Shown here: piece after piece, positions 2,290 through 11,869 of the stretch
Numbering within the stretch: the stretch's first letter is position 1
Layout: each line of letters opens with the position of its first letter
NCBI RefSeq assembly: GCF_036059255.1
Contig: NZ_CP107947.1
Coordinates: 3,906,001 to 3,970,000, forward strand
DNA from: Micromonospora sp. NBC_00389
GTDB lineage: Bacteria; Actinomycetota; Actinomycetes; Mycobacteriales; Micromonosporaceae
Direction: 5' to 3'
DNA length: 64,000 nt
Notes under the pieces: model-generated
The model's database searches: none
What the model was told of the DNA's origin: nothing
Seen by the model: only the letters and a program-made list of their open reading frames with translations
Made by a program: the position numbers and the translations under genes

Positions 2290-2515
2290 TTCCACGGCTA
2301 GGAGCCACCCGGGGGTCGCGTCGGCCGAGAGGCGGCGCGGCCCCTGGTTGCCCAGGCGGCCGGTTGAGTCTGGAGCGGCGAGTCGATACTGAGCCGGCTC
2401 CCCCTGCTGCGCCTGCGCGGTGGCGAGAGGAGCGAGGTTGAAGGCCTTGCCACGGATGTACCACTCGTCCATCGGAGGCCACTCCACCACACAAAAGATC
2501 AAGTGGCGTGGAGTA
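2290..2515. other. Intergenic stretch, no supported gene
   Basis: About 225 bp lie between the dctA stop and the stop of the interrupted small gene on the minus strand. A minus-strand open frame (from about 2502) runs through it and on across dctA antisense. It has no ribosome-binding site and no recognisable domain, so I do not call it. No convincing terminator hairpin is visible. Confidence 0.4.
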
Positions 2516-2806
2516 CTAAGCCGGCGGCGAATCGCCGAGCCTGCGGAAGGCCTCGCCGCAGACGTCGACGCAGTGCGCCAGTACCACGTCGGCGGTGAGC
2601 GCCCCGGTCGTGGTGAACAGGAAGACCTCGCGGTCGACGCGTTCGACCGATTCGGTCCACGGCTCGGCCGTCAGCACCTGCTCGAAGACGTCGGTGCCGG
2701 GAGGGGACAGGTCGAAGACGATGAGCATGCCGCCGTCGAAGCTGAGGGTCCACTCCCGGCCGTCTTTCGTGGCGACCGCCAGATAGTCCGGCAGATCCTC
2801 CAATGT
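2516..2806 (-). pseudogene. C-terminal half of a small unknown gene split by the ISL3 element
   Basis: This minus-strand fragment encodes about 95 residues beginning EDLPDYLAVATKDGREW and ending GDSPPA. Read from the 8-bp target duplication, it continues in frame from the N-terminal half at 5855-6012. Without the mobile element, and counting one copy of the duplication, the two halves give 441 nt, exactly 147 codons including the stop. The reconstructed 146-residue soluble protein has no family I recognise. It would be the last gene of a minus-strand operon with the unknown gene, P-loop kinase and lipoprotein to the right. A TTG at 2803 could formally start a shortened product, but that codon is internal in the ancestral frame. 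Confidence 0.85.
2799..2806. repeat. Left 8-bp target-site duplication of the ISL3 element
   Basis: TCCAATGT abuts the left inverted repeat and is repeated exactly at 5855-5862 next to the right inverted repeat. Eight base pairs is the usual duplication length for the ISL3 family. Confidence 0.93.
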
Positions 2807-2830
2807 GGCTCTTCACAACGTGGGGTGTAG
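2807..2830 (+). repeat. ISL3 left inverted repeat
   Basis: It begins GGCTCTTCACA and ends GGGGTGTAG. It pairs with 5831-5854, matching at the outer GGCTC, the TCACA block and the inner GGGTGTAG block. Confidence 0.9.
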
Positions 2831-2931
2831 TTGGGGACCGAAATGCGCCGGGGCGCCCGTCAGGGATCGGCGCCGGCTCGATGCTGGCGGCGGCGCGTGA
2901 TGCCGGATGGGCCGTCGGCGATAATGTCGGC

Positions 2932-3771
2932 GTGGAGTATGTGTCCAGGGTGCCCGGTCCGCCGCTGGACGGGCTGATCGACGACCTCTACTACCTGGAG
3001 GGCGCCCCGCCGTACTCCCGGTTGATGCTGCCGGCGGCGCCCGCGCCATTGCTCATCGTCAACCTCGGGGCGCCGTTTCTCATCCGCGCAGGCACCGACG
3101 TAGACGCCGTGGAGTACGCCGACGGCTGCGCGGTTACCACGCCCACGCGTGCGTGGGAGTTCAGCTACCCAACCCCGACCCGGTCCGTGGGCGTCCACTT
3201 CAGGCCGTGGGGCCTGGCACCGTTCCTTCCGATGCCCGCGGCCGAGTTGTGCGACCGACCTGCGACGGTGGAGCAGATCTGGGGCCAGCCCGCTATCGCT
3301 GAATTGCGACACCGACTGACCTTGGCGGACGCACCGCACGAAATGCTGATGTTGCTCGAGGAGGAACTGGTGCGACGGCTGCGGGTGATCGACGGTCTTG
3401 ACCTGGTCCGCCAAATGAGCAGCGCCGTCGCGGCGACAGGCGGGACAGTGCCGATCAGCGACATCGGTGTGGCGGCCCGCGCCAGCAGCACGTATTTGGC
3501 GAAGCGGTTCAAGGCCGTAGTCGGTGTCACGCCAAAACGGCTGGCTCGCAGCTACCGCTTCAGCTCCACCGTGTTGGCGCTCGACGTCGCTGCACCGATC
3601 GACTGGGGAGACGTTGCCGCTGGCGCGGGCTACTTCGACCAGGCCCACTTCGTGCGCGAGTTCCGGGAGTTCACCGGGCTCACGCCGACCCGGTACGCCG
3701 AAGTCCGGCGGCGATTCCTGCGCGATCATCCCGACCACGTCCTGGACGGCTGGCCGCTCCCAGCCGATTGA
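2932..3771 (+). CDS. AraC-family transcriptional regulator (passenger of the ISL3 element)
   Basis: Cytoplasmic DNA-binding regulator of 279 residues. The N-terminal half (VEYVSRVPGPPLDGLIDDLY onward) resembles the uncharacterised N-terminal domain of a large actinobacterial AraC group. The C-terminal half carries two helix-turn-helix units, the first near SDIGVAARASSTYLAKRF and the second ending in the AraC signature DQAHFVREFREFTGLTPTRY. I chose GTG 2932 because the family N-terminus begins here. ATG 2881 is an in-frame alternative. A TAATGT box lies at 2922-2927. The gene starts about 125 bp inside the left inverted repeat and is followed 63 bp later by the RibD-like gene in the same direction, so it probably controls that gene (inference). 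No effector can be read from the sequence. Confidence 0.85.
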   Translation: MEYVSRVPGPPLDGLIDDLYYLEGAPPYSRLMLPAAPAPLLIVNLGAPFLIRAGTDVDAVEYADGCAVTTPTRAWEFSYPTPTRSVGVHFRPWGLAPFLPMPAAELCDRPATVEQIWGQPAIAELRHRLTLADAPHEMLMLLEEELVRRLRVIDGLDLVRQMSSAVAATGGTVPISDIGVAARASSTYLAKRFKAVVGVTPKRLARSYRFSSTVLALDVAAPIDWGDVAAGAGYFDQAHFVREFREFTGLTPTRYAEVRRRFLRDHPDHVLDGWPLPAD

Positions 3772-4505
3772 TTTCGTACAAGAGCGACAGCTCACGCCGC
3801 ACAAGACTTGGGACTCCAAACAGAGGAGGAATCCATGGGGAAAGTGGTCATGAACGCGTCGGTTTCGGTGGATGGTTTCATCGCGGCTGAGAACGACGAT
3901 CCCGGTCCGATCTTCGAGTGGCTGGTCAGCGGTGACGTGCCGTTGGACGACAGTGGCGTTCTGAAGGTGTCGCAGGCTTCGTTCGACTACGTCCGGCCGT
4001 ACTGGGACGAGGTCGGGGTGACCATTGCCGGCCGTCACGCCTTCGACATCACCGACGGCTGGGATGGGACGCCTCCGAGTGGGATCGACCATGTGGTCGT
4101 GGTGAGTCACCGTGGTGCGCCCGATGGCTGGGACCTCCAGGCGCCGTTCCACTTTGTCGACGGCATCGAGGCGGCCGTGGCCAAGGCGCGGGAGCTTGCG
4201 GGTGACCGCACTGTCGAGTTCGCTGCTGGCGACGTCGGCGGCCAGGCGCTCGCGGCAGGTTGGGTCGACGAGGTACGCATGGACGTCGCACCCGTCGTGC
4301 TCGGGTCCGGTAAGCGTTACTTCGGCTCCGTCGACGCGCAGCACCTGCTGGAAGGCCCAGACGTAGTTGTTCAGGGCAACCGGGTGCTTCACCTGCGCTA
4401 TCGGGTGCGCCGTTGACCGATCTGAGTGGGTACGCGAAGAAGACCGCTGCGACGGTGACACGAGATCGGGCGTCCGGCTGCGTTTGTGCATCGCTGCCCC
4501 GGGAC
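3770..4505 (+). repeat. RibD-like reductase module, copy A
   Basis: This stretch is closely similar to 8247-8985. The similarity begins upstream of the reductase gene (both copies have TACAAGAGCGACAGCTCACG) and runs through the gene into about 90 bp of 3' flank (both have TTGACCGATCTGAG just after the last codon). Copy A lies wholly inside the ISL3 element, copy B outside any intact element. Confidence 0.85.
3835..4416 (+). CDS. Dihydrofolate reductase-like (RibD C-terminal domain) protein, copy A
   Basis: Small cytoplasmic NAD(P)H-dependent reductase of 193 residues. It starts MGKVVMNASVSVDGFIA, the typical first strand of the RibD_C/DHFR-like fold. GRHAFDITDGW (about residue 68), the GDVGGQALAAGWVDEVRMD block (about residue 130) and a C-terminal VLHLRYRV strand complete the single domain. 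ATG 3835 follows an AGAGGAGGA ribosome-binding site. Members of this family reduce pteridine or pyrimidine-type substrates, but the substrate here is unknown. The gene is a passenger in an ISL3 element behind an AraC regulator. A close paralogue lies at 8311-8892. Confidence 0.88.
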   Translation: MGKVVMNASVSVDGFIAAENDDPGPIFEWLVSGDVPLDDSGVLKVSQASFDYVRPYWDEVGVTIAGRHAFDITDGWDGTPPSGIDHVVVVSHRGAPDGWDLQAPFHFVDGIEAAVAKARELAGDRTVEFAAGDVGGQALAAGWVDEVRMDVAPVVLGSGKRYFGSVDAQHLLEGPDVVVQGNRVLHLRYRVRR

Positions 4506-4525
4506 GGAAGTCGTGGTCTTCCAGA

Positions 4526-5848
4526 TTGGCACACCTCGACTTGTCTGACGCTACCTTTGCCTGCCCTGACCTGACCAAGTTCTGCCGGCTCGACGAGCTC
4601 GGCCTGGCCGTCACCGGCCAACGACTCAGGCCCGACCGTGCGGTGCTGGCATGCCGGGTCGTCGAGCCGGACCCGTGGTGCCGTCGCTGTGGTTGCGAAG
4701 GCGTACCGCGCGACACCGTGACCCGGGAGCTGGCCCACGAGCCGCTGGGCTGGCGGCCGACGATGCTCGTGGTGACCGTGCGCCGCTACCGGTGTACCGC
4801 TTGCGGTCACGTGTGGCGCCAGGACACCAGCCTCGCGGCTGAGCCGCGAGCGAAGCTGTCGCGTCGCGGGCTGCGGTGGGCACTCGAGGCGATCGTGTGT
4901 CAGCACCTGACCGTCGCGAGGGTCGCCGAGGGACTCGGGGTCGCGTGGAACACCGCCAACGACGCTGTCCTGGCCGAAGGCAAGCGGGTGCTGATCAACG
5001 ACGCCACCCGGTTCGACGGCGTGGCCGCGATTGGGGTCGACGAGCACGTGTGGCGCCACACCCGCCGCGGCGACAAGTACGTCACCGTGATCATCGACCT
5101 GACCGGCATCCGTGACGGCACCGGACCCGCTCGGCTGCTGGACATGGTCGAGGGCCGCTCAAAGCAGGCGTTCAAGTCCTGGCTCGCCGACCGTGATCAG
5201 ACGTGGCGCGACGGGGTGGAGGTGGTGGCGATGGACGGGTTCACCGGCTTCAAGACCGCCACCGCCGAGGAACTCCCCGACGCGGTTGCGGTGATGGATC
5301 CCTTCCACGTGGTCCGCTTGGCCGGCGACGCCCTCGACCGGTGTCGCCGCCGGGTCCAGCAGGCCATCCACGGCCACCGCGGGATGAAGAATGACCCGCT
5401 CTACTCCGCCCGCCGGACCCTGCACACCGGCGCCGACCTGCTCACCGACAAGCAGACCGACCGGCTCGCCGCCCTGTTCGCCGACGATGCCCATGTCGAG
5501 GTCGAGGCCACCTGGGGGATCTACCAGCGGATGATCGAGGCCTACCGCGAGCAGGACCGGGGTCGTGGCCGCGAGCTGATGGTCAAGCTCATCGACTCGA
5601 TCAGCCACGGCGTGCCGAAGCCCCTCACCGAGGTCATCACACTCGGTCGAACGCTGAAGAAGCGCGCGGCCGACGTGCTGGCCTACTTCGACCGACCTGG
5701 AACGTCCAACGGACCGACGGAGGCCATCAACGGCAGGCTCGAGCACCTGCATGGCTCCGCCCTCGGCTTCCGCAATCTCACCAACTACATCGCCCGATCC
5801 CTGCTCGAGACCGGCGGCTTCAGACCTCAACTACACCCTCATCTGTGA
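4526..5848 (+). CDS. ISL3-family transposase, full length
   Basis: DDE transposase that cuts and pastes the ISL3 element at its inverted repeats. An N-terminal zinc-finger region has two Cys pairs (WCRRCGCEG and YRCTACGHVW) before a helix-turn-helix (VARVAEGLGVAWNTAND). The catalytic core shows GVDEHVW and VAMDGFTGF (Asp residues) and NGPTEAINGRLEH (Glu). The C-terminus HGSALGFRNLTNYIA runs into the right inverted repeat, and the stop TGA (5846-5848) lies inside it. The start is uncertain: TTG 4526 or TTG 4541 give about 435-440 residues. No frameshift or internal stop is seen, so the protein is probably active. A truncated relative lies on the minus strand at 9114-11125. Confidence 0.93.
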   Translation: MAHLDLSDATFACPDLTKFCRLDELGLAVTGQRLRPDRAVLACRVVEPDPWCRRCGCEGVPRDTVTRELAHEPLGWRPTMLVVTVRRYRCTACGHVWRQDTSLAAEPRAKLSRRGLRWALEAIVCQHLTVARVAEGLGVAWNTANDAVLAEGKRVLINDATRFDGVAAIGVDEHVWRHTRRGDKYVTVIIDLTGIRDGTGPARLLDMVEGRSKQAFKSWLADRDQTWRDGVEVVAMDGFTGFKTATAEELPDAVAVMDPFHVVRLAGDALDRCRRRVQQAIHGHRGMKNDPLYSARRTLHTGADLLTDKQTDRLAALFADDAHVEVEATWGIYQRMIEAYREQDRGRGRELMVKLIDSISHGVPKPLTEVITLGRTLKKRAADVLAYFDRPGTSNGPTEAINGRLEHLHGSALGFRNLTNYIARSLLETGGFRPQLHPHL

Positions 5849-5854
5849 TGAGCC
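5831..5854 (-). repeat. ISL3 right inverted repeat
   Basis: On the minus strand it begins GGCTCATCACAG and ends GGGTGTAG, mirroring 2807-2830. It overlaps the transposase stop codon. Confidence 0.9.
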
Positions 5855-5862
5855 TCCAATGT
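5855..5862. repeat. Right 8-bp target-site duplication of the ISL3 element
   Basis: TCCAATGT is identical to 2799-2806 and sits directly outside the right inverted repeat. Confidence 0.93.
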
Positions 5863-6012
5863 GGGGTCCTGCGGCAGGCGCGCGGCGGCCTCGGTCACCG
5901 CGGGCAGCCCGGCCAGAGCGTCGCCGTCGAACACGTCCCAGCCGCCGCTGCTACGCCGCGGCTCGACACCGTCGACCGCGTAGGCAGGGCGGGAGCGTCG
6001 CAACCAGCTCAT
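5855..6012 (-). pseudogene. N-terminal half of the small unknown gene split by the ISL3 element
   Basis: It encodes MSWLRRSRPAYAVDGVEPRR through ARLPQDPTLE, from ATG 6012, 29 nt downstream of the stop of the preceding minus-strand gene. A GTGAGAG motif lies upstream of the ATG. At the 8-bp duplication it joins in frame to the C-terminal half at 2516-2806. With the element in place, the frame runs out inside the right inverted repeat. No family is recognised. The N-terminus is basic and not a signal peptide. Confidence 0.82.
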
Positions 6013-6041
6013 GACTCTCACTAACAAGTTCCGTTGGAGTA

Positions 6042-6470
6042 CTAGAGGTTCTCAGCGAGAAGCCGGCGAGCTTGATGTTGTTGGTCCACGCCGATGCATG
6101 CGAGGACCGAGGTGCCGTCAACCGCCAGGAACAGTTGGAAGTGGTAGGGAGGATCCGACTGGTTGACGCGGCCGAGCCGCAACGGTTGCTCCCCGAGTGC
6201 GTGAAGCGTCTCGACGGCCGCTACGAGGCCGCGGGTGGGGATTCCCCGCTCCCTGGTGTGGGCCTGCCGCCTTCGGTACGTGCGCGCCAGGTTGTCCGCA
6301 GGGACAAGGTCGTCGTCGATGTGGAAAGGACTTCCCTCTTCGAGAGCACTGCGGCACGCCTCGTGCACCGGCCTGTCGTCGACAAGAAGCGAGATCAGTT
6401 CCGCGCGCTCCACCTGGCGACCGTACAGCCGTTGCTCGAATCTGAACGGTACGGACGACGACGTGGTCAC
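6042..6470 (-). CDS. Hypothetical protein, third gene of the minus-strand operon
   Basis: Predicted soluble protein of 142 residues, starting VTTSSSVPFRFEQRLYGR and ending HQARRLLAENL. It has no signal peptide, no membrane helix and no motif I recognise. GTG 6470 overlaps the stop of the upstream P-loop kinase gene by 4 nt (GTGA), which indicates translational coupling. The small interrupted gene begins 29 nt further on. A TTG at 6473 is a possible alternative start. Coupling to a P-loop kinase suggests a joint function, but I cannot name it. Confidence 0.7.
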   Translation of the reverse strand: MTTSSSVPFRFEQRLYGRQVERAELISLLVDDRPVHEACRSALEEGSPFHIDDDLVPADNLARTYRRRQAHTRERGIPTRGLVAAVETLHALGEQPLRLGRVNQSDPPYHFQLFLAVDGTSVLACIGVDQQHQARRLLAENL

Positions 6471-7769: not shown

Positions 7770-7791
7770 GGCTTTTCACAATGCAAAGTGT
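7770..7791 (+). repeat. Orphan ISL3-like inverted-repeat end
   Basis: GGCTTTTCACAATGCA followed by AGTGT matches the ISL3 end at 9089-9113 (GGCTTTTCACCAATGCA, then GGGTGT) at about 20 of 23 positions. It stands alone: no transposase is attached and no duplication is visible. It is probably the relic of a third ISL3 copy, or the outer end of a decayed one. Confidence 0.55.
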
Positions 7792-7832
7792 CTTCGGTGA
7801 CGCTGATGCGCCGATTCTCGTCGAACTCCCGC

Positions 7833-8246
7833 AAAAACCAGATCTACAAGGCGTTCCGGGAGGTCGGGCGCGTGATGCGGACCGTGGCGCTGCTGCGGTT
7901 CCTCGCCGACTCGGGGCTGCGGGCATGGGTGACCGCGGCCACCAACAAGGCCGAGGCCTACAACGGGTTCTCCGCCTGGACCCCGGTTCGGCAACCAGGG
8001 CGTGATCGCCGAGAACGACCCGGCCGAGCAGGAAAGTCGGTCAAATGGAACTCGCTGCTGTGCAACCTGATCGTGTTCCACACCGCGATCGACATGATGG
8101 AGGTCATCCGGAAGATGGTTGCCGAGGGGTGGCAGGTGACCGCTGAGGATCTGGCCCAGCTCTCGCCCTACCTGACCTCCCACATCCTCCGGTTCGGCGC
8201 CTACGCAACCGACGAACTCCACATCCCGCCGTACGTGTTCGCGATT
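7833..8246 (+). pseudogene. Tn3-family transposase, C-terminal remnant with two frameshifts
   Basis: The reading frame shows the conserved C-terminal core of Tn3-type transposases: NQIYKAFREVGRVMRTV, then ATNKAEAYNGF, then in a second frame FGNQGVIAENDPAEQE, and back in the first frame WNSLLCNLIVFHTAIDM and QVTAEDLAQLSPYLTSH. A one-base gain near 7980 and a one-base loss near 8035 compensate each other, leaving a garbled middle segment. The N-terminal part (about 800 residues in the family) and the terminal repeats are missing. The remnant is joined directly to copy B of the reductase module. Confidence 0.85.
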
Positions 8247-8985
8247 TCTTACAAGAGCGACAGCTCACGACACGCTAATTTGGGGGCACCCCAAAGCAAA
8301 GGAGAGCCCCGTGGGCAAGGTGGTCATGTACAGCTCGGTGTCGGTGGACGGCTTCATCGCGGACGAGAATGACCAGCCCGGACCGCTGTTCGACTGGTTG
8401 TCCAGCGGTGACGTCCCGTTGGACGAGAGCGGCGTGCTAAAGGTGTCGCAGACGTCCTACGACTACACCCGGCCGTACTGGGACCAGATCGGGGCGACAG
8501 TCGCCGGCCGCCACGTCTTCGACATGACGGACGGCTGGGACGGGAAGCCTCCGAGCGGGATCGACCACGTGGTCGTCGTGACGCACCGGCCGAAGCCCGA
8601 GGGCTGGGACCCCGAGGCGCCGTTTCACTTCGTCGACGGCGTCGAGGCAGCCGTGGCCAAGGCGCAGGAGCTTGCGGGTGACCGCATGGTCGAGGTCGCC
8701 GCCGGCGACGTCGGTGGCCAGGTGCTTGCCGCGGGCCTGGTCGACGAGGTGCGCATGGACGTCGTACCCGTCGTGTTCGGGTCCGGCAAGCGCTACTTCG
8801 GGTCGGTCCACGCGCAGCACCTGTTGGAGGATCCTGACGTGGTGATTCAGAGCAACCGGGTGCTTCACCTGCGCTATCGGGTGCTCCGTTGACCGATCTG
8901 AGCGGGTACGCGATGAAGTCCACTGCGAACGGTGACACAAGATCGGGCCTCCGGCTGCGTTTGCGCATCGCTGTCCCTGGTCGGG
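8247..8985 (+). repeat. RibD-like reductase module, copy B
   Basis: Second copy of the module at 3770-4505, in the same orientation. It includes the upstream TACAAGAGCGACAGCTCACG block, the gene and about 90 bp of similar 3' flank. It lies between the Tn3 transposase remnant and the end of the truncated ISL3 copy, with no AraC gene attached. Confidence 0.85.
8311..8892 (+). CDS. Dihydrofolate reductase-like (RibD C-terminal domain) protein, copy B
   Basis: A 193-residue reductase closely similar to the product of 3835-4416 along its full length and of identical length. It starts MGKVVMYSSVSVDGFIA and keeps GRHVFDMTDGWDG, GDVGGQVLAAGLVDEVRMD and VLHLRYRV. GTG 8311 follows an AAAGGAGAG ribosome-binding site. 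The frame is intact and the substitutions look conservative, so it is probably functional. No regulator remains beside it. Its promoter would have to lie in the Tn3-remnant junction. Confidence 0.87.
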   Translation: MGKVVMYSSVSVDGFIADENDQPGPLFDWLSSGDVPLDESGVLKVSQTSYDYTRPYWDQIGATVAGRHVFDMTDGWDGKPPSGIDHVVVVTHRPKPEGWDPEAPFHFVDGVEAAVAKAQELAGDRMVEVAAGDVGGQVLAAGLVDEVRMDVVPVVFGSGKRYFGSVHAQHLLEDPDVVIQSNRVLHLRYRVLR

Positions 8986-9113
8986 CAGCCGACGCCGATC
9001 CGCCCCAGCACCTCACCTGCGGCAAGTTCACCTCAAGATCACTGGTTGCCGGTTTCCGTCGTATCTTTGGCCGACCCCCAGGAAGAGCGGCTTTTCACCA
9101 ATGCAGGGTGTAG

Positions 9114-9230
9114 TCGCGGGGTCTGAATCCGCCTGTCTCGAGTAGGGATCGGGCGATGTAGTTGGTGAGGTTGCGGAAGCCGAGGGCGGAGCCGCGCAGG
9201 TGCTCCAGGCGGCCCGTTGATCGCTTCGGT
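9114..9230 (-). pseudogene. ISL3 transposase, C-terminal fragment
   Basis: The minus-strand sequence corresponds to PTEAING...LRGSALGFRNLTNYIARSLL of the intact copy. A one-base difference after the INGP codons puts the last 30 or so codons in a different frame from the Glu-containing part, so it would be inactive even without the IS481-type insertion. Confidence 0.8.
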
Positions 9231-10574
9231 TGGACAGTTTCCGCTCCGTGCTAACTGTCATGTCCCGGGAGGTGTGTCAAACGTGTGTCCCGGGACGTGT
9301 GTCATGGGGTGGGGGTGAGGCGGACGTAGCGGGTGTCGTTGGTGGTGGCATGGCCGATGGGGTGGCCGTCCGCGGTGTAGACGGTGATGTGGTGGTGGTC
9401 GCGGATGGCGGTGAGGTGGTGTCCGCGCCAGGCGCAGCCGATGCCGATGCGGGCGGGGCCGACGCGGATGGTTCCGGTGTCGGAGACGCGGGGTCGGTGG
9501 ATGGTGGCGTCGGTTTGGATCGGTAGGGCTTGGGGTCCGCCGTGGTGTGGCGCGGTGTGCCAGGTGTGGTGTGGGGTTGCCCGGCCGGGTAGGGCGCTGT
9601 GGCGGCGGTGGTTGTAGTGCTCGCGGTAGGTGTCGAGCAGTCGTTGCAGTTGCCCCAGGGTGCGGGGTTGGTGGGGTTGCGCGGTGAGCCATTTCTTCAG
9701 GGTCTGGTGGTGGCGCTCGACTTTGCCGCAGGTCTGTGGGTGGTAGGGGCTGGAGTGGATCAGTCGGGTGCCGTGTTGGTGCAGGGTTTGGGCGAAGCGT
9801 GATGGGCCGGCGTTGTCGTGGCGATGGCGGCTGGTGAATGCGGCGCCGTTGTCGGACAAGACGATCGCGGGTGCGCCGTGGTTGGTGATGGCGTGGCCGA
9901 TGGCGGCGATCGCGGCGGTGGCGGTTTCGGCGGTGGCGGCGTGGCAGGTCACGAGCATGCGGGTGCAGTCGTCGATGACGTCGAACACGGCGACGAGACG
10001 ACCGTCGGTGAGAGTGATCATGGTCGCGTCGATCTGGTAGCAGTCGCGGGGTTGGGCGTAGGCGAAGCGGCGCCAGGAACAGCGGGGCCTCTTGGCAGGG
10101 TTGCGGTGCAGCAGGTCATGGCGCGACAGCACCCGGTTGATCGTGGATCGTGACGGCACCGACCACGCGGGGCTGGTCTCGGCGTGGATGCGCACCAGTT
10201 CGTCGTGGATGTGATCCGCGCCGTTGTCCACGCCCAACTCGGCGCGCAGCTTGCAGATCCAGGCGTCCAGTTCCGGCGGGGCCTGGCCCGGGCTGTGGTG
10301 CGGCCGGCTCGATCGGGCTCGCCACGCACCCTCGGCGTTGATCCGCGCCCGGTGTCGGTAGAACGTGCGCGGGTTGACCCCGTTGTCACGACACCACTGC
10401 TGCACGTTATCGATTTTCACCCCTGCGGTGAGCAGGGCATCCACCGCGCTCATGACCTGACGCCGAATCGCCATGGCTTGCAGTCAAGCCCGACAACGCA
10501 CCCCCACCTACAAAGCTGATCTTGTGACACAGGAACCGGGACATGAACTGCGACAGAGGTCATGGGACTGAACA
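9231..10574 (-). mobile_element. IS481-family insertion sequence (boundaries approximate)
   Basis: About 1.34 kb inserted in the ISL3 transposase. Related ends are seen: TGGACAGTTTCCGC...TCATGTCCCGG on the left, and on the minus strand of the right TGTTCAGTCCCATGACC...TCATGTCCCGG. The left end also has tandem GTCCCGGGA/GTGTGTCA blocks (9261-9304). I found no clear target duplication. About 9-12 nt of ISL3 sequence seem to be missing at the junction compared with the intact copy. The transposase frame is complete. Confidence 0.75.
9302..10474 (-). CDS. IS481-family transposase
   Basis: Integrase-type DDE transposase of 390 residues. The N-terminal helix-turn-helix region includes VQQWCRDNGVNPRTFYRHRA. 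The integrase core has the expected acids: QIDAT (about residue 150), VLSDNGAAFT (about residue 209) and KVERHHQTLKKW (about residue 252). The ATG is at 10474. The C-terminal HHITVYTADGHPIGHA strand is typical of IS481 proteins. There are no frameshifts, so it is likely functional. It disrupts an older ISL3 copy and is therefore the younger insertion. Confidence 0.93.
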   Translation of the reverse strand: MAIRRQVMSAVDALLTAGVKIDNVQQWCRDNGVNPRTFYRHRARINAEGAWRARSSRPHHSPGQAPPELDAWICKLRAELGVDNGADHIHDELVRIHAETSPAWSVPSRSTINRVLSRHDLLHRNPAKRPRCSWRRFAYAQPRDCYQIDATMITLTDGRLVAVFDVIDDCTRMLVTCHAATAETATAAIAAIGHAITNHGAPAIVLSDNGAAFTSRHRHDNAGPSRFAQTLHQHGTRLIHSSPYHPQTCGKVERHHQTLKKWLTAQPHQPRTLGQLQRLLDTYREHYNHRRHSALPGRATPHHTWHTAPHHGGPQALPIQTDATIHRPRVSDTGTIRVGPARIGIGCAWRGHHLTAIRDHHHITVYTADGHPIGHATTNDTRYVRLTPTP

Positions 10575-11125
10575 GGGTGCCGGGCCGGTCGAAGTAGGCC
10601 AGTACGTCAGCGGCTCGCTTGCTCAGGGTGCGGCCGAGCTTGGCGATCTCGACCAGCGGCCTGGGGACGCCGGCGCTGAGCGACTCGATCAGCTTGACCA
10701 TCAGCTCGCGGCCCGCGGCTGGGTCGGGGTGCCGGTAGGCGGCGATCATCCGCTGGTAGATGCCCCAGGTGGCCTCGACCTCGACGTGCTCATCGATGGC
10801 GAACAGGGCCGTGAGTCGGGCGGCCTGCTTGTCGGTGAGCAGGTCGGCACCGGTGTGCAGGGTTCGCCGGGCACGGTAGAGCGGGTCGTTCTTACGGCCG
10901 CAGCGGCCGCGGGTGGTCTGCTGAACGCGGCGGCGGCAGTCGTTGAGGGCGTCGCCGGCAAGGCGCACCACGTGGAAGGGGTCCACCACCGCGACCGCGG
11001 CGGGGATCTCCTCAGCGGCGGCGGTCTTGAAGCCGGTGAACCCGTCCATCGCGACGACCTCCACGGCCTCGCGCCACGCCTGGGGGCGCTGGGTAAGCCA
11101 GGCCTTGAACGCGGCCTTGGAGCGG
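10575..11125 (-). pseudogene. ISL3 transposase, middle fragment
   Basis: Reading on the minus strand it starts RSKAAFKAWLTQRPQAW, keeps VAMDGFTGFKTAAAEE and PFHVVRLAGDAL, and ends AADVLAYFDRPGT at the IS481-type junction. Zinc fingers, the first catalytic Asp (GVDEHVW) and the start are missing. It is closely similar to, but clearly diverged from, the intact copy, so the two are not a recent duplication. Confidence 0.88.
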
Positions 11126-11869
11126 TCCGGCTCGCCGCGCTGAACTACCAGGTGCGGGCGGCCGAGTGGGAGTGGACGTACACCGATGCCAACGGCACGC
11201 CGATGCGGGCGACGAGCCGCGCCTTCGTCGATCGCAATGGGCACGCGTACACGATCGGCTGGACCACCTCGGACGCCGAGTGGTCGGTCAGCCGGGGGAT
11301 CTTCGAGCTGATCACGGATGGCTTCCAGGGGCTGCCGCTAGCCGCCGGCTCGCCGAGTGCCCCACCGGCAGGAGGTGCGGGGCGCCCGTCGACCGGGCCG
11401 GGCAGTGGTTCGACTGCCGCTGCGGGGATCCCAGGGCGGCAGCCCTCGGCGACGGCGGCTCCACCACCCACTGCGCCGGTCCGGCCGGCCGGCGCCAAGC
11501 AGATCGTCGGCAAAGAGACCGGGCTCTGCCTCAACAGCGGCGAACGCGACGGCGTGCGGGTTACGCTGCGCAAGTGCCAGGAGGTGCGGAACCAGTGGTG
11601 GTCCTTCTCGTCCGACGGCACCATCCGGGTAGGCAGCCTCTGCTTGGACGTCGCCTGGGGTGAGAAGCGCGACGGCGTTGCCGTGCAGTCCGCCAACTGC
11701 ACCACCGTGCATGCCCAGAAGTGGGAGTGGATCGAGAAGGATGGGCGCCGCTCACCTTTCAACCGCCTGACCGGCAGGTGTCTGGACGTCGACGGCCACG
11801 CGGCGGGCGCGCCGATGATGATCTGGACCCCGCGTGTTCAACGCGAAGCAGACGTTCAACCAGAAGTAG
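11126..11869 (+). pseudogene. C-terminal remnant of a ricin-B-lectin protein (possibly a receptor-type Ser/Thr kinase)
   Basis: The plus frame begins at the ISL3 junction with LAALNYQVRAAEWEWTY and RATSRAFVDRNGHAYTIGW. This resembles the extracytoplasmic domain seen after the membrane helix in some actinobacterial Ser/Thr kinases. A Pro/Ala/Gly-rich linker follows, and then a ricin-type trefoil (GKETGLCLNSGE, CQEVRNQWWSF, GSLCLDVAW, TGRCLDVDGHAAGAPMMIW). A one-base shift near 11832 moves the end into another frame, reading VFNAKQTFNQK and TAG 11867-11869. The 5' part is lost at the ISL3 junction. The kinase origin is inference. The lectin repeats are clear. Confidence 0.7.

Follow-up and report, generated by a model that had tools for sequence, protein, structure and literature searches.

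Introduction

A target duplication of 8 bp is a trait of the ISL3 family of insertion sequences (ISs), and several members are described as carrying genes beyond the transposase. ISPst2, with isoforms ISPst2a and ISPst2b on Arthrobacter plasmids, is given as 2,985 bp long with ArsR and permease passengers, and the ISL3 elements in Table 3 of the same paper have 8-bp repeats (PMC6305408). ISPpu12a carries a regulator together with LspA-like and CzcD-like genes (PMC4133298); ISPpu12 and ISPpu12a were captured with a trap plasmid (PMC4133298, PMC4447125). An ISL3-like circle with fosB3 is reported from Enterococcus, in a paper that attributes circle formation to ISL3 elements and describes a circle as the route of ISPst9 transposition (PMC3812183). 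Here we describe an ISL3 element at positions 2807-5854 of a 64,000-nucleotide stretch of the Micromonospora sp. NBC_00389 chromosome (NZ_CP107947.1, positions 3,906,001 to 3,970,000; hereafter the window). Sequence comparisons indicate that it is genuine and was mobile recently, an ISL3 unit that carries an AraC-family regulator and a RibD-type reductase as true cargo.

Results

Structure of the unit and its occurrence at two sites

The unit is 3,048 bp long, and its regulator, reductase and transposase genes all lie on one strand. Its features are as follows.

2799-2806, no strand: left copy of the 8-bp target duplication TCCAATGT, directly outside the left end
2807-2842, plus: outer left end (left inverted repeat, IRL), matching the right end at 27 of 36 bases
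2845-4507, plus: cargo segment at the greatest extent seen, by its 80-83% match to stand-alone pair loci of the genus
2932-3771, plus: AraC-family regulator, cargo gene 1, from a putative start (longest frame from 2803)
3835-4416, plus: RibD_C/DHFR-like reductase, cargo gene 2, by frame and Pfam match
4541-5848, plus: ISL3-family transposase (ISPfr2-like), its stop codon within the right end
5819-5854, minus: right end (right inverted repeat, IRR), inverted repeat with 2807-2842
5855-5862, no strand: right copy of the 8-bp target duplication TCCAATGT, directly outside the right end

The two ends were the first-listed inverted repeat in a search of 2500-6200. The first-pass annotation of the window had described them as 24-bp inverted repeats (2807-2830 and 5831-5854); the ends stand, and they are longer and less perfect than was claimed, with 18 of the outer 24 bases identical. 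Like other ISL3 ends of this lineage they are imperfect inverted repeats of the GGCTCTTC type, and relatives with 8/8 duplications have the same end type. The perfect 8-bp duplication claimed outside both ends was found again as TCCAATGT, an 8-mer with 3 occurrences across the whole window where 0.44 are expected. Profile matches in Pfam and NCBIfam likewise bore out the three plus-strand genes. The regulator matches PF12833, PF00165 and PF20240; its longest frame begins inside the duplication, and GTG 2932 was chosen from the sequence as its putative start. The reductase belongs to the RibD_C family (PF01872, 36.6 bits, cut-off 24.1), and its start at ATG 3835 has AGAGGAGG directly upstream and agrees with the equivalent start of a related frame at 8311. 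The transposase falls in the ISL3 family by PF01610 (195.7 bits, cut-off 23) and NF033550 (367.3 bits, cut-off 180), with its start set at TTG 4541, the position that corresponds to the start annotated for a Rhodococcus relative. A composite transposon would have two whole IS copies; the unit has one transposase gene and, at the upstream end, at most 36 recognised bases.

The unit interrupts a gene, the two parts of which were delimited from the joined flanks and from relatives without the insert.

2516-2806, minus: 3' part of the 147-codon gene that the unit interrupts
5863-6012, minus: 5' part of the same gene

As had been proposed, joining the flanks without the unit and one duplication restores an exact minus-strand frame of 146 amino acids plus stop. 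Among 160 same-genus genomes, own genome included, four span the insertion point without an insert (G100 at 91%, G051 at 92%, G122 at 87% and G158 at 84%). Intact target frames of 146, 145 and 141 amino acids are present in G100, G122 and G158, respectively; in G051, the DNA of which spans the site, the motif-and-length filter gave no frame. Neither half of the target gene, nor the intact G100 orthologue, has a Pfam match.

The first-pass annotation had further claimed that the whole 3-kb unit transposed as one, and had suggested a genome search for independent copies. That search found the same 3,048-bp unit in another species, G079, with 27 differences (99% identity), at a different site and flanked by a different perfect 8-bp duplication, CGTATTCG. 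The 8-bp duplication of the ISL3 family is thus present and perfect at both places, TCCAATGT in the window and CGTATTCG in G079, and the same cargo at two sites makes this a passenger-bearing ISL3 element. Because two sites in two species carry different perfect duplications, the outer left end must be used and the cargo moves along. Together with the uninterrupted target in relatives, these results uphold the claim.

Among the matches listed, the whole unit was present in two of the 160 genus genomes (own genome and G079), and a family-wide search of 354 genomes gave no further whole unit among the matches listed. Three genomes that belong to other genera, G228, G308 and G249, hold the left end and the gene pair at 95-97%, again among the matches listed by the latter search. 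In two of them, G308 and G249, that end is worn, and in none of the three was a transposase found in about 1.5 kb beyond the pair, except for a 71-base scrap (90%) directly after the reductase in G249. Unit or cargo has thus passed between genera, with the transposase prone to loss.

The AraC-reductase pair outside the unit

At least part of the pair is present in at least 73 of the 160 genus genomes, mostly with no transposase found nearby. We fetched 76 loci because they matched (75 with cargo); both genes are intact in 56, a fraction of a biased sample and not a rate, and the transposase is intact in 3. At 48 of the 76, both genes are intact and the transposase is absent, meaning no match above 60% identity within the stretch fetched; G111 and G014, which have weaker fragments, are among these. 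Grouping by upstream neighbourhood (blastn matches of at least 300 nt; some stretches stop at contig ends) divided the 75 loci into 60 groups, which means that the pair has no single fixed location. The first-pass annotation had named a pair always found at this locus without the IS as evidence against its claim, and these groups show the opposite. A fixed chromosomal pair with an ISL3 element inserted beside it, and end repeats and duplication arising by chance, would fit the frequency of the pair without a transposase; the 60 neighbourhood groups and the uninterrupted target in relatives make it extremely improbable. The G079 unit, with its other site and other perfect 8-bp duplication, also led us to reject chance, or a single insertion event next to a chromosomal pair.

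Ratios of nonsynonymous to synonymous substitution (dN/dS) were calculated between the window copy and older copies. They ranged from 0.271 to 0.448 for AraC (median 0.354, n=52) and from 0.175 to 0.328 for the reductase (median 0.249, n=53). These values indicate purifying selection on the pair, hence some role for it, without telling which; its role as a metabolic or resistance cassette stays a candidate one. It could instead be a neutral hitchhiker, useless to host and element, and the single relative of the reductase with a solved structure that a sequence search gave, 3kgy (E 6.8e-13), has only the name 'bifunctional deaminase-reductase domain protein'. With the pair intact at 56 of 76 loci against 3 intact transposases, and with medians of 0.25 and 0.35, we consider neutrality improbable.

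Another alternative is that the AraC protein regulates transposition, as TnpR of ISPpu12 would, and that the reductase is incidental. ISPpu12a carries tnpR, described as a transcriptional regulator gene, and a title cited for it says that TnpR regulates ISL3-like transposition (PMC4133298); the one-strand arrangement of the three genes would also suit such a role. However, at the 48 loci described above the pair is intact with no transposase match above 60%, and AraC is under purifying selection there. The corresponding slot in relatives, moreover, either has an unrelated regulator (TetR, MarR, other AraC types) or lacks one. We therefore give this alternative little credence and favour control of the reductase by AraC.

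Traces of ISL3 elements accompany several older copies of the pair. An ISL3-type end lies 62 bp upstream of the first AraC query codon in G103, G077 and G045, and 61 bp upstream in G029. Transposase pieces stand beside older copies in G119, G100, G157, G103, G112, G033 and G027, with weaker ones in G111 and G014; the one in G112 is a C-terminal fragment directly upstream of araC. The window's second pair locus also adjoins a broken ISL3 copy. Most pair loci scanned had no recognisable pair of ends. Those found with two ends were the window unit and G079 (8/8 duplications) and G077 (7/8), which is a candidate mobile insertion cassette, a 1,717-bp unit with two ends and no transposase; no empty site spanning the G077 insertion was found, and its flanks match different places. 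Two further candidates for two-ended cassettes, G001 (7/8) and G061 (6/8), were counted as chance, the left 'end' lying inside the AraC coding region. The ends and broken copies at older loci may reflect an older round of ISL3 carriage, which is a reading and not a proof.

A cargo slot in related elements

We then compared relatives of the transposase, from a scan of one genome per species with the window transposase as query; the best 79 of at least 569 confirmed relatives were kept. Both ends and 8/8 duplications were found at 42 of the 79 loci, a count that includes L124, a transposase-only element with a CGCTC end (the others start GG). The remaining 37, where the scan gave no 8/8 duplication, were left unclassified. 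Fifteen of the 42 consist of the transposase only and measure about 1.4 kb; in the other 27, left end and transposase are separated by more than 500 bp. With cargo in 27 of 42, the relatives do not all have inverted repeats tight around the transposase, a pattern that the first-pass annotation had set against its own claim. From the transposase-only elements we infer that the cargo genes are dispensable for transposition.

Eight further cargo modules, six of which include a regulator, occur among the 27 elements.

Module A, 17 elements (one near-identical lineage; second gene called in 15): DJ-1/PfpI-AraC regulator and 103-amino-acid protein
Module B, 1 element: TetR, SDR and unmatched protein
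Module C, 1 element: AraC and alpha/beta hydrolase
Module D, 1 element: TetR, SDR and F420H2-dependent quinone reductase
Module E, 3 elements: mycothiol-S-transferase
Module F, 2 elements: TetR and small multidrug-resistance protein
Module G, 1 element: methyltransferase (PF04072) and unmatched protein
Module H, 1 element: SDR and MarR

The 103-amino-acid protein of module A has no Pfam match and is 97% identical to a Cryobacterium protein annotated as antibiotic biosynthesis monooxygenase. Module D recurs in the same-genus genome G048, in a 3.84-kb ISL3 element (L044 1318-5156) with its own perfect duplication, GGTTTCGC; there the cargo is 95% identical over 2.5 kb to Nonomuraea L133, and the transposase is frame-shifted. 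In a transposase tree, careful but rough and with bootstrap not settled, the window unit groups with G079 and G027 (100/98), the sister of this clade carries module B (99/91), and module E stands in two places kept apart by supported branches. Cargo thus differs between related transposases, and distant transposases can share one cargo.

On two plasmids, L057 of Cryobacterium and L060 of Arthrobacter, ISPfr2-type transposases are annotated beside regulator genes. A search of 600 bp in L057 gave no left end, and the adjacent gene shares 97% identity with module-A cargo; the L057 cargo therefore probably lies inside the element.

Probable scars of capture and altered ends

A stretch of an element's own ISL3 sequence recurs on its outer left side in 24 of the 27 cargo elements. 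The repeat is a direct one, of the left part or early transposase, in 22 (17 of module A, 1 of B, 1 of C, 3 of E). All 17 module-A elements repeat 138-186 bp of their own left part at 86-98%, and in L123, L126, L134, L161 and L182 the sequence retained there, likewise direct, comes from the left end or the early transposase (72-99%). In the two module-F elements (L153, L154) the outer left side is an inverted right end (167 bp, 77%). The outer end is the one used, since the duplications flank it. The inner end, on the other hand, is altered in all 14 elements scored: it reads GGGTC in 11 of 11 of module A (shared descent) and has six extra bases in the repeat in 3 of 3 of module E (read by eye). 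Proximal ends that do carry the duplication start GGCTC in 14 of 15 cases and CGCTC in one. We infer that the outer-left repeats are the scar of a composite transposon that decayed into a unit.

The left end of the window unit is probably a former right end, because its bases 25-36 resemble right ends; the transposase fragment upstream of araC in G112 points the same way. These bases match right ends at a mean of 8.0/12 and left ends at 4.1/12. Control left ends score 1.5 to 6.3 against right ends there, and random GC-rich 12-mers reach 8.0 in 0.01%. The four W-type left ends, which are mutually homologous, match right ends at 7.1 to 8.2 of 12.

We consider it highly probable that 2807-5854 is an ISPfr2-like ISL3 unit transposon with AraC and a RibD-type reductase between outer left end and transposase, that its slot derives from a composite, and that AraC controls the reductase to the benefit of the host. 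Two ISL3 copies would have flanked the gene pair, and the composite would have moved by its outermost ends. Of the older copy, upstream of araC, only a solo end would then have survived decay (in the window unit probably a right end); the downstream copy would have retained the transposase. Loss of or damage to the inner end would leave the IS unable to depart without its cargo. The resulting unit would excise and insert by its DDE transposase like other ISL3 elements, perhaps through a circle. AraC would control the reductase, and host benefit would keep the pair intact after transposase loss.

Several observations weigh against parts of this explanation. The G027 copy, 95% identical, has all of the unit except the outer left 24 bases, and no matched duplication. 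Comparisons of the window with its closest copies show no selection, there being too few changes: AraC ratios are 0.59 (G079) and 0.22 (G027a), and the reductase has no synonymous change and a ratio of 1.3, respectively. Three of the 27 cargo elements (L133, L191, L193) have no scar beyond at most a short end. The left-end type log-odds of the window end, -1.1, lie between the left controls (-34 to -13.5) and the right controls (+10.2 to +25.9), and blastn of the window's cargo part against its own transposase part gave only 36 bases (E 0.08).

The last two results would also be expected if the outer left end were no decayed IS end and the transposase had instead adopted a chance or surrogate end upstream of araC. 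At the older loci G103, G077 and G045, the end that lies 62 bp upstream of one and the same araC codon looks different, which would agree with this. Against it stand the 27/36 identity to the right end, part of it inside base 24, the resemblance of four homologous W-type ends to right ends at bases 25-36, the G112 fragment, and the scars in 24 of 27 other cargo elements. A surrogate end is accordingly rather unlikely, and we retain descent from a composite as the preferred origin of the slot.

Extended to the lineage, this origin would make ISPfr2-type actinobacterial ISL3 elements a general cargo platform. Regulator plus redox, detoxification or efflux modules would be captured repeatedly by composites that decay into units after inner-end damage; hosts would then keep the cargo, or transposase-less cassettes move it, after transposase loss. 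We give this generalization about an even chance.

Other ISL3 remnants

A broken pair locus, 7770-11128, lies 1.9 kb from the intact unit and includes the following.

8311-8892, plus: second reductase copy (80% amino acid identity), related to the cargo, at the older broken pair locus outside the unit
9089-11128, minus: broken ISL3 copy beside the second reductase, outside the unit; another IS separates its remnants 9089-9239 and 10577-11128
9302-10474, minus: IS with rve-type transposase (PF00665, by Pfam match) inside the broken ISL3 copy

An ISL3-type left end is present at 7770; in the place of AraC is a stretch that includes a fragment of a Tn3 transposase (PF01526, 3e-35), and the reductase is intact. 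The genome holds a third, partial ISL3 copy at G000:C1:4933827-4934774 (L002, L006, L052), 88-94% identical to the transposase part and with the right end present. At window 9081-9096, and in L014 (G157), L017 (G100) and L225 (G310), GGAAGAGC abuts an ISL3 end of the GGCTCTTC type. The two together form a near-palindrome, at equal distance behind the reductase in several genomes, and are perhaps two joined ISL3 ends.

Comparison with known systems

The first-pass annotation had regarded cargo on a simple IS as unusual. The cargo is real; its kind is not new, with ISPst2 (PMC6305408) and ISPpu12a (PMC4133298) in print. ISPst2 resembles the window unit in being an ISL3 element with 8-bp duplications and regulator plus effector passengers; it differs in its ends (GGGTATCC versus GGCTCTTC) and unrelated cargo, and the description of ISPst2 seen in PMC6305408 has no capture scar. 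ISPpu12/ISPpu12a, a 3,372-bp ISL3 element resembling non-composite transposons, likewise has a regulator and two accessory genes, but it is from Pseudomonas, its cargo is LspA-like and CzcD-like, and its TnpR regulates transposition according to the cited title (PMC4133298, PMC4447125). The fosB3 circle shares a cargo gene, on a circle of the kind that ISL3 elements form, and differs in cargo and host (PMC3812183). Judged by titles and abstract starts, the open-licence papers listed in literature searches included no ISL3 element with AraC and RibD cargo, which is no claim of absence from print, and one unrelated paper came up on ISL3 and Micromonospora.

ISPfr2-type ISL3 elements on actinobacterial plasmids (PLSDB) share the transposase part at about 80% DNA identity over 43% of the window unit; unlike the unit, their records annotate the transposase alone as the element. 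Since the inner end in the Rhodococcus record, after CGTTTCAG, is an altered GGGTC, the true left end of that element may lie further out. Annotating these ISL3 elements as 1.4-kb units, this suggests, can miss true left ends and thus cargo, which 27 of the 42 with perfect duplications carry.

The kind of element is therefore already known, and what is added here is the cargo, the frequency of cargo in the lineage and the capture scars. The origin of transposons from ISs is usually argued from end products. In this single transposase lineage, transposase-only elements, cargo elements with long-repeat left ends and cargo elements with short remnants all have perfect duplications, and the route from composite through inner-end damage and erosion to unit therefore becomes readable and testable.

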